64,000 nucleotides of DNA, from NCBI RefSeq assembly GCF_000800805.1, contig NZ_CP010070.1, forward strand, positions 682,001 through 746,000, in the 5' to 3' direction. Under the pieces are notes generated by a model. That model was not told the DNA's origin and did not search any database. It was given only the letters and a program-made list of their open reading frames with translations. The translations under genes were made by a program, and so were the position numbers. How positions within the stretch are numbered: position 1 is the first letter of the stretch; every line of letters starts with the position of its first letter. This DNA comes from Candidatus Methanoplasma termitum (GTDB lineage: Archaea > Thermoplasmatota > Thermoplasmata > Methanomassiliicoccales > Methanomethylophilaceae). Of this stretch, positions 21,003 through 62,886 are shown piece after piece.

Positions 21003-23540
21003 TTACATAAGCGAGAGTTCCAAGTACTCTTTCCTGTTCTCCATCGCCACGACGATCGGAAGGCCCGACACTGTCCTGCCATCCTTCACGGCCGCGGTTA
21101 TTGTCACTACGGAGTCTCTCTTTGCCCTTACTCTGCACTTGCCTTTAGAGTTCGTATAGACCGTACCGCCGCGGATCTTTCCGCCCTTCTCTACGCTGTA
21201 TGTCACACCCACTCCTGAGATTACCTCGCCGTTATTCGCCACACTGATAAAGAGACCTGATCTGATCCTAAGCAGGAAAAGTGCAAGCAAAGCTGCAATG
21301 ATCAGCAGTATCAAAAGTCCTATCGCCAATAACCCGATACCGCTCGTTCCGCCTGAATCGACATCGCTTGAATCCGACCGTGTTGCTACCGCACTCGCAA
21401 TGGTTATAATATGGTCGGACTGCACATTATAGAAGGTGTACTGCCCGCTGTTGACATTCCCATTAAAGAGCTGGTCCCCATCTATCAACACAGATGTGAT
21501 AACATTCCCCGCTCCCGCAGTGAATCTGAACGTCATATCCGTTCCTCCGAGAACATTAAAGGTTCCGTTTGGCGATATTGTCGCTCCTTTATCTGAAGTT
21601 GCGGTGATGATGTATTCTGACTTTCCGGGGACATCTGGTACGCCAAGAGTACCCGGGGGAGCGACTTTTTCCGCAACGCTGGTGACAGATATCGAATGAT
21701 CCGCAAGAACACCGAAGAATGTGTACTGCCCGCTGCTGACCTTCCCGTTGAATAGGGGAACACCGTCGATCTTGACTGAAGTTATCACATATCCGCTCTT
21801 TGCATAGAAGTCGAATGTCTTGTCTGTTCCCGCCTGAACAGCGACAGCCCCTCTGGGGGATATGACGGAACCAGAGTCTGATGTTGCGGTGATGTTGAGG
21901 TCTGCCTGTGCGGCGGGACCGAAAATAGCTGTTACAGACCTGTCGGAGCCCATGATCAGATTATATTGAAGATTTGTTCCGAACGCTTCTCCGCTCCACT
22001 CTACAGTGCCTCTGACTGACGGAGCTGCGGTCAGGACAACATCAGCCACGTTTGTCGGTACGTAGACCTCTCCGCTTGAGCTGAGTGTGCCGTATGATCC
22101 CGTTCCGTCGCTTACTTCCACTGAACCGCTGCCGACGATCGTTATGGTTACTGTGTAATGGGGTCTCATGAAGTCGACCGATGCGCCGCTTGTCATAAGC
22201 TCTCCGCCCGTCTTCACGATCGGGCTGTTGTCATAGCCGTTGAGTCCGAAGACGAAATCGTCTGCGCTTCCCGTGGTTGTGAATGCAGACATCATCTTTG
22301 CTTCTGCTCCTGTCCCTAGACCTGTCAGAAGATCGATCGTCATATTGAATGGTGCCGGGAGTTCTGCCTCCACCGCATTTGCTGATGCGGGGTTCGCTGT
22401 GAACTTTACCGTATTTCCTATTTTGCCTGCTGTTCCGAGCAGATTGCCCTCGGACAACATCACAAGAATGTTATCGGTCTGGCCGTAGTGGCCGAGACCA
22501 TCTGTACCCGCTCCTATGTCCGGAGATATACCATCTCCGCTTTTTGCGGTCACCTTGGTATTTTCACCGTAGATCAGGATGTCGCCGCTGTCTCCGCCGT
22601 AGACAACGGACAGCCAATTGTATATGCAGCTGCCACCACCGATGCCTGCGCCGGAACTATTGCCATAATGTCCGCCAGTCGCCTCTACGTCGCCGCCGGA
22701 TATTGTGATCGTGCCGCAGAAGGATTGATTACCTGCGCTGCCGATCCCCGCGCTGCTGCTTCCGCCAAACGCTTTGATCGTGCCGCCGGTGATCGTGATC
22801 GTGCCGCCGCTCTCTTGAACCCCGTAGCCGCCCCCGATGCCTGCAGCCCCGCTGTTCCCGGAACCGCCTATCGCCGTCACAGTGCCGCCGTTTATAGTAA
22901 TGCGGTCAAGATAAGTGCCTGCACCGCCCCCGATGCCTGCACCGTACGCTCCGCCTCTTGCATACACAATGCCGCCGTTTATGGTAACAGATCCGCCGGA
23001 ATAGCCCGACCCCGAACCTATGCCTGCATTCATATGGGCATTGGCTGTCGTGATGTATCCGCCGTTGATGGTTATGTCGCCGCATATGCTCAAACTGCCT
23101 ATGCAAGCGTTGTATAGACGGCTGTAAACCGTCAGGCTGCCGATCCTTTCAATATCGGTCGATTGAGCATATATTGTCAGACTGTTAGGCGCGGTCACAT
23201 CGATCGGACCGCCTAATATCGTCACACAATAATCGGCAAGGATGATGTGCACATCACCATTTATTGTGATGGGGACAGCGTATTGTATATCAGGGATGAG
23301 TGTCCCGGTGAAAAGATACCATCCCGAATCCAGTGTTATCTGGGAAAGATGATCCACTATTGTCACATTATCTTTGAATTGAGTTGTTCCGTTCTCGTCT
23401 ATGTATGGCACGCCGCTCTGCGTATCTGCATCGTCAGCGGGCGCTAATGACACGACCCCTGCAACAAGAACTGATACTGCGGCAATAAATAATGCTGTCT
23501 AAATGATTTTTGATCCTTTGAGGATGATTTTCTTTTGCAT
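21003..23540 (-). CDS. Large secreted, membrane-anchored surface protein with an in-frame TAG in its signal peptide
   Basis: The gene has a GGTGG Shine-Dalgarno and ATG at 23538-23540 and starts MQKKIILKGSKII. A TAG codon at 23499-23501 follows, then the same frame continues with a classic hydrophobic signal core (TALFIAAVSVLVAGVVSLAPA). If TAG is read through (pyrrolysine), the protein is 845 aa. If not, a GTG at 23453 would give 816 aa without a signal peptide. The mature part has glycine-rich repeats of about 35 residues (TINGGTV, GAGIGGG; about 22600-23060), two InlB-like modules (SGQYTFF, SGQYTFY) and a transmembrane helix. An 80-residue beta-rich domain follows the helix. Probable cell-surface adhesin. 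Confidence 0.82.
22600..23060 (-). repeat. Glycine-rich tandem repeats inside the surface protein
   Basis: Four to five imperfect repeats of roughly 35 codons share the pattern ITINGGxVxAxGGxxxAGIGGG. The regular hydrophobic/glycine alternation suggests a right-handed beta-helix. The opposite strand of this region is also open but is a compositional shadow. Confidence 0.65.
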
Positions 23541-23804
23541 TTTTCTACCACCAATGGTATATTTTTCCATTTCATGCAGATAGATCGGTGCCTGGACCTT
23601 TCATGGAGCCCATGAAACCTGATTACAGCCCCCTTTCCCCACAATGAATGTATAGCGAAGTATGTAAAAACGGTATTTAAAATATGGTCTGAAAAAAATA
23701 TGTAGTTGTATTGCCCACCAAAATGAACGAACCATAAATCAAAATTATTCGCCTGGGGATCCACTACAATCGGTTCTTTATATCTTGAGACTATCAGCGA
23801 ACGC

Positions 23805-62127: not shown

Positions 62128-62886
62128 TCAAACTTTCTTTATCTTTATCAGATACACATTGATAGAGAAGAAAGCTACGCAGAAGCATAACAACACAAAG
62201 AGAGACATCCAGGGAAAATCCCAACCTAAGGATGATGCTCTTGCAGTAACGCTTGAATGCGTAAGAGGCAGCGCATACAGTACAGCCTTGAACACTGACG
62301 GAAGTCCGTCGACCGCAAAGAAGGTGCCGCAAAGGAAGGTCATCGGGAGGATCACCAGATTGCTGAACAATGCTATTGCCTGATGCGTGTTCGCCAAAAA
62401 GGCTGCGGTAACACCCAAGAATGCAAAGGTAAAACATGACAGAAGGATGGAAATTGCAAAAAGAGGAGTGAAATGCAGATGTTCCGGGGACAATGCGATC
62501 CCTATCGCAAATATTATGCCGCTGCTGATCAACCCTCTGATCACTCCGTGCATAGACTTCCCCAGCACTACGGCGGGTATGCTCACCGGACACATCAAGG
62601 TCTCATCCAAAGAACGATAGTATAAGCGCTGGACGTTAAGTCTTGTGGAAACAGCGGAGAATGATGCAGATAATGAAGACAGCGCCGCGATACCCGGTAT
62701 GATGAACGCAATGTACGGGATGCCGTCGACATCGATGTTCTTCACCATCCCGAGTCCGAAGCCGAATGCCAAAAGATACAGCAAAGGACTCATTATTGTC
62801 GAGACAGAGATGTTCAGTAGATTGTGCCTCATGAATCTCAGGTCCCCCCACATAACGTAGTAGATCTCTTTCAAGAACCCTAACAT
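62128..62886 (-). CDS. ABC-2 type transporter permease
   Basis: This 252-aa membrane protein has six predicted helices and the ABC-2 pattern (AFIIPGIAALSSL, LYALPLTHS near the end). It pairs with the upstream ATPase (1-nt TGATG overlap) to form a DrrAB-like exporter of unknown substrate. Confidence 0.9.
   Translation of the reverse strand: MLGFLKEIYYVMWGDLRFMRHNLLNISVSTIMSPLLYLLAFGFGLGMVKNIDVDGIPYIAFIIPGIAALSSLSASFSAVSTRLNVQRLYYRSLDETLMCPVSIPAVVLGKSMHGVIRGLISSGIIFAIGIALSPEHLHFTPLFAISILLSCFTFAFLGVTAAFLANTHQAIALFSNLVILPMTFLCGTFFAVDGLPSVFKAVLYALPLTHSSVTARASSLGWDFPWMSLFVLLCFCVAFFSINVYLIKIKKV

Follow-up and report, generated by a model that had tools for sequence, protein, structure and literature searches.

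The window, a 64,000-nucleotide stretch (positions 682001-746000) of the single-contig, 1,488,669-base (1.49 Mb) genome of Candidatus Methanoplasma termitum, carries on its minus strand a long gene with an in-frame TAG near its 5'-end. In agreement with the preliminary description, the minus-strand sequence harbors a Shine-Dalgarno (SD) site and an ATG at 23540, followed by 13 codons, TAG and the same frame continuing into a signal-peptide core (ACC ATT GGT GGT AGA AAA ATG CAA AAG AAA ATC ATC CTC AAA GGA TCA AAA ATC ATT TAG ACA GCA TTA TTT ATT GCC GCA GTA; the spacer between SD and ATG is AGAAAA, and T-ALFIAAVSVLVAGVVSLA follows TAG). The features of the locus are as follows.

23547..23552, minus strand: SD-like GGTGGT, 6 nt 5' of the ATG, from sequence
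21003..23540, minus strand: complete coding sequence with TAG read as pyrrolysine, 845 residues plus TAA, from coding score
23502..23540, minus strand: signal-peptide n-region, codons 1-13, MQKKIILKGSKII, from sequence and homologue alignment
23499..23501, minus strand: in-frame TAG, codon 14, proposed pyrrolysine, from sequence
23442..23495, minus strand: hydrophobic signal core ALFIAAVSVLVAGVVSLA, from sequence, aligned with homologue cores
23451..23453, minus strand: GTG, the earliest ATG/GTG/TTG 3' of TAG, inside the signal core
22824..22901, minus strand: best Beta_helix_3 (PF18889) stretch, from a Pfam scan
21270..21338, minus strand: C-terminal hydrophobic membrane segment IGLLAIGLLILLIIAALLALFLL, from sequence

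The TAG is flanked on both sides by coding sequence of one protein, the 5' part being the 13-codon n-region with its SD and ATG. Downstream of it 831 codons are open up to TAA at 21005-21003 (minus strand), and the coding score of this frame (about +135 to +146) is among the highest of the window. The Pfam scan of the protein detected no methyltransferase domain. Its C-terminal region is common to ten other places in the genome (query 98% identical), and the membrane segment and tail are also found in other large ORFs of the genome. Given the Beta_helix_3 match and the shared C-terminal segment and tail, we refer to the product, with its signal peptide, beta-helix repeats and C-terminal membrane segment, as a putative surface protein. 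The 816 residues given in the preliminary description do not correspond to the whole protein, which has 845 residues when TAG is read; they do correspond to the frame counted from GTG 23453, inside the core. A standard-code ORF search thus truncates the protein at this GTG and drops the signal peptide.

One way to avoid reading TAG is to place the real start behind it, with initiation either at GTG 23453 or from some non-canonical codon past TAG, leaving the 13 codons as a leader. Non-canonical starts are plausible elsewhere in the genus (phosphoglycerate kinase at ACG), and two surface genes of genome G051 lack ATG, GTG or TTG ahead of the core. However, no ATG, GTG or TTG lies between TAG (23501-23499) and the signal core of the window gene, initiation at GTG 23453 would remove the core, and no SD-like site was seen before the codons that follow TAG. 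The 13 codons resemble an n-region and are in frame with the core; of random intergenic sites in this genome, 5.2% have, 6-25 codons upstream, an in-frame ATG preceded by an SD of equal quality, and 0.8% have one that also gives a net charge of at least +3. A start downstream of TAG is therefore very hard to credit.

Elsewhere, N-terminal TAGs were attributed to 5' leaders with a better start downstream in a PaaK-like ligase (L064 3508), at L066 8939 and L068 15149, in phosphoglycerate kinase (L056 1846) and at L046/L185. At the expected start of phosphoglycerate kinase, ACG is found in four of four loci, one from Ca. Methanoplasma termitum (L209) and three others (L212, L213 and L214), in a context of the type GGTGAG-AGC-ACG-AAA-GAC; three of these loci have no ATG, GTG or TTG at the expected start, and genome G043 has ATG. 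ACG thus looks like a conserved start of this gene in the genus, and with an ACG start in L209 the TAG 7-8 codons upstream would fall in the leader. In the two G051 surface genes (L198 and L203), ATC/ATT comes after a G-rich run and might serve as a non-canonical start.

Whether TAG can be read depends on the rest of the genome. The pylS, pylB, pylC and pylD genes lie in one cluster and all score above curated cut-offs (PylS with the model of its C-terminal domain), and a tRNA-Pyl(CUA) gene, missed by ARAGORN in default mode, is located directly 5' of pylS (L064 12038-12107, about 607.04-607.11 kb of the genome). Among 16 other genomes of the genus, 14 have PylD above its cut-off; the remaining two are 75% and 65% complete. 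Counting stop codons in 864 kb (58% of the genome), we found that genes with a score above 20 end in TGA (373), TAA (168) or TAG (9). Five of the nine TAG-ended frames end at internal TAGs, in two mtmB genes, a DUF1266 protein, a two-domain CbiX-like protein and a transposase, the latter two named by reading the sequence and not by a library scan. True TAG stops are thus at most 4 of 550 scored genes, as compared with 18.3% predicted from intergenic triplets (P ~ 4e-42), and in relatives sampled at 380-400 kb per genome the pattern was alike. For comparison, published proportions of TAG stops are 1.6% for Ca. M. alvus (PMC4153887) and reach their maximum, 11%, with M. luminyensis (PMC3941956). 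In the window, 58 of 59 predicted genes end in TGA or TAA, and the remaining one, a 71-aa frame at 62621-62860 that ends in TAG and has a score of 11, faces a better gene on the opposite strand. The preliminary description, which had proposed TAG as a pyrrolysine codon and noted that the complete genes it checked end only in TGA or TAA, is supported in this respect: the pylTSBCD cassette is complete, less than 1% of confident genes end in TAG, and further genes carry in-frame TAG.

Two other TAG-ended genes deserve mention. An FtsZ/tubulin-like gene of Ca. Methanoplasma termitum (L092 12830, minus strand; recognized by eye from a GGGTGSGT motif) terminates at a TAG that TGA follows after a further 7 codons, so that readthrough would add a short tail only. 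An adenylate-kinase-like gene, named from its GTPGTGK motif and by reading (L262, also L092 5284 minus, in Ca. Methanoplasma termitum; L256-L271 overall), carries a TAG following ...WF in each of 16 genomes from four genera, TAG stops being otherwise uncommon there. From an ATG/GTG immediately 5' of this TAG, the next frame reads V-L-D..., and overlap with a downstream gene may be what keeps the TAG in place. Some archaea reportedly (2025) read all TAG codons as pyrrolysine, and the adenylate-kinase-like TAG is a natural case for testing whether this applies to every TAG. The in-frame amber genes listed for ISO4-H5 include an adenylate kinase (PMC5011839).

A recent nonsense mutation, with translation ending at UAG in what would be a young pseudogene or an off allele, would fit a TAG seen in a single genome and lacking in homologues. 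Surface genes can decay, as a degraded paralogue fragment of the C-terminal domain of the window gene, with TGA and TAG inside, exists in the same genome (G000:C1:920050-920298). Yet the 831 codons 3' of TAG contain no further disabling stop, neither TAA nor TGA, and have a strong coding score, the genome encodes the suppressor tRNA together with the entire biosynthetic set, and other intact genes carry in-frame TAG. We therefore consider a nonsense mutation unlikely. The cassette, the rarity of TAG stops and the other genes with in-frame TAG together make translation of codon 14 as pyrrolysine the best account, one that we hold with high confidence, the insertion itself being deduced from the genome. 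Accepting this account, tRNA-Pyl charged by PylS would read the codon-14 TAG, in a genome in which TAG appears to have largely lost its role as a stop. Pyrrolysine would then stand at the n/h boundary and would probably be removed along with the signal peptide upon export and cleavage.

The position of this TAG led the preliminary description to propose that pyrrolysine supply could gate secretion, UAG being retained in the signal peptide so that export of the surface protein tracks Pyl. Relevant here is another surface protein encoded by this genome, at L071 on the minus strand (about 2,580 codons); it begins GGAGAGGGGACC-ATG, MRLRSEI-O-ERFSTLAIIALFLIMVAV, and carries one TAG in its signal n-region and another in a List_Bact repeat (GWNT-O-DDGSG), an independent profile search likewise placing one TAG within the List_Bact domain. 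A sibling repeat reads FAGWNTAADGNG, suggesting that the residue at the repeat TAG is replaceable. The signal n-regions, about 0.23% of coding codons, hold 2 of the 6 non-MtmB in-frame TAGs of this genome, an excess estimated by hand at P ~ 1e-4 with the window gene and ~0.01 without it. This enrichment is suggestive but unproven; since the estimate is post hoc and the numbers are small, we make no claim of enrichment. Samples of G043, G010 and G023 had no n-region case and gave no sign of a general enrichment of TAG in signal peptides. The sample of G044 contained one candidate (L100 5364, minus strand), with TAG just past the signal core, reading MKKKNNLVPVLAVVCALMALSVIGIAV-O-NGDSADGG and then 385 more codons.

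Within the genus, homologue signal peptides align with MQKKIILKGSKII-O-TALF... (e.g. MQVARISKITEFRRNLLLTAAIATALVV in G044), and the column of the TAG is occupied by L, M, V, I, F, T or other residues; a scan of genome contigs for a close orthologue of the window gene found none. The homologues thus have ordinary codons at this position, with one ambiguous exception in G058, where TTG-AAG-GTA-TAG-CAA precedes the core and the start is uncertain. Although this possible TAG and the L071 n-region would suit control of secretion by Pyl supply, the position is unconserved among the homologues, unrelated genes and a repeat domain contain TAG as well, and pyl genes are genus-wide. The positive support for such control amounts to the two n-region cases in one genome, and we regard it as not supported and highly improbable; as it is compatible with readthrough, what small probability it has overlaps with that of the preferred account. 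The same low credence applies to its genus-wide form, in which UAGs would gather in n-regions because early placement ties surface display to Pyl-tRNA supply, hence to methylamine availability. The unconserved site, the TAGs in a transposase and other unrelated genes, and the repeat-domain TAG favor neutral gain. The codon most likely arose from a sense codon by a one-base change that was presumably neutral, and pyrrolysine in this export signal is most likely harmless drift and not a switch. Neutral gain has also been argued for Pyl candidates of Ca. M. alvus (PMC4153887).

Comparable cases are known. MtmB, present here in two copies, likewise has an in-frame TAG read as pyrrolysine, which in that enzyme is a conserved catalytic residue, whereas the position in the window gene varies; conservation of the methyltransferase type was not found for the window gene, whose homologues have sense codons. 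Closer are Ca. Methanomethylophilus alvus and ISO4-H5, of the same order, which have a pyl cassette, few TAG stops and in-frame TAG in non-methyltransferase genes (PMC4153887, PMC5011839); the ISO4-H5 candidates include one adhesin-like gene (PMC5011839), and a TAG in the signal peptide, as here, is not described in the available parts of these reports. A tRNAHis guanylyltransferase has likewise been proposed to have gained pyrrolysine neutrally, without any need for it; this is another protein in another organism, and its readthrough was studied experimentally, whereas the window gene is known from its sequence (Heinemann 2009, as presented in PMC4153887).

As many Pyl-candidate genes of this order have already been published (PMC4153887, PMC5011839), the signal-peptide position alone is new, and the window gene is otherwise a further instance of a published phenomenon. 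This position makes the entire exported protein depend on how the TAG is read. As the signal core is reachable only via UAG, finding the mature product on the cell surface would directly show efficient reading of an early UAG outside methyltransferase genes. The list of likely pyrrolysine sites gains an exported protein, with the site in its signal peptide.
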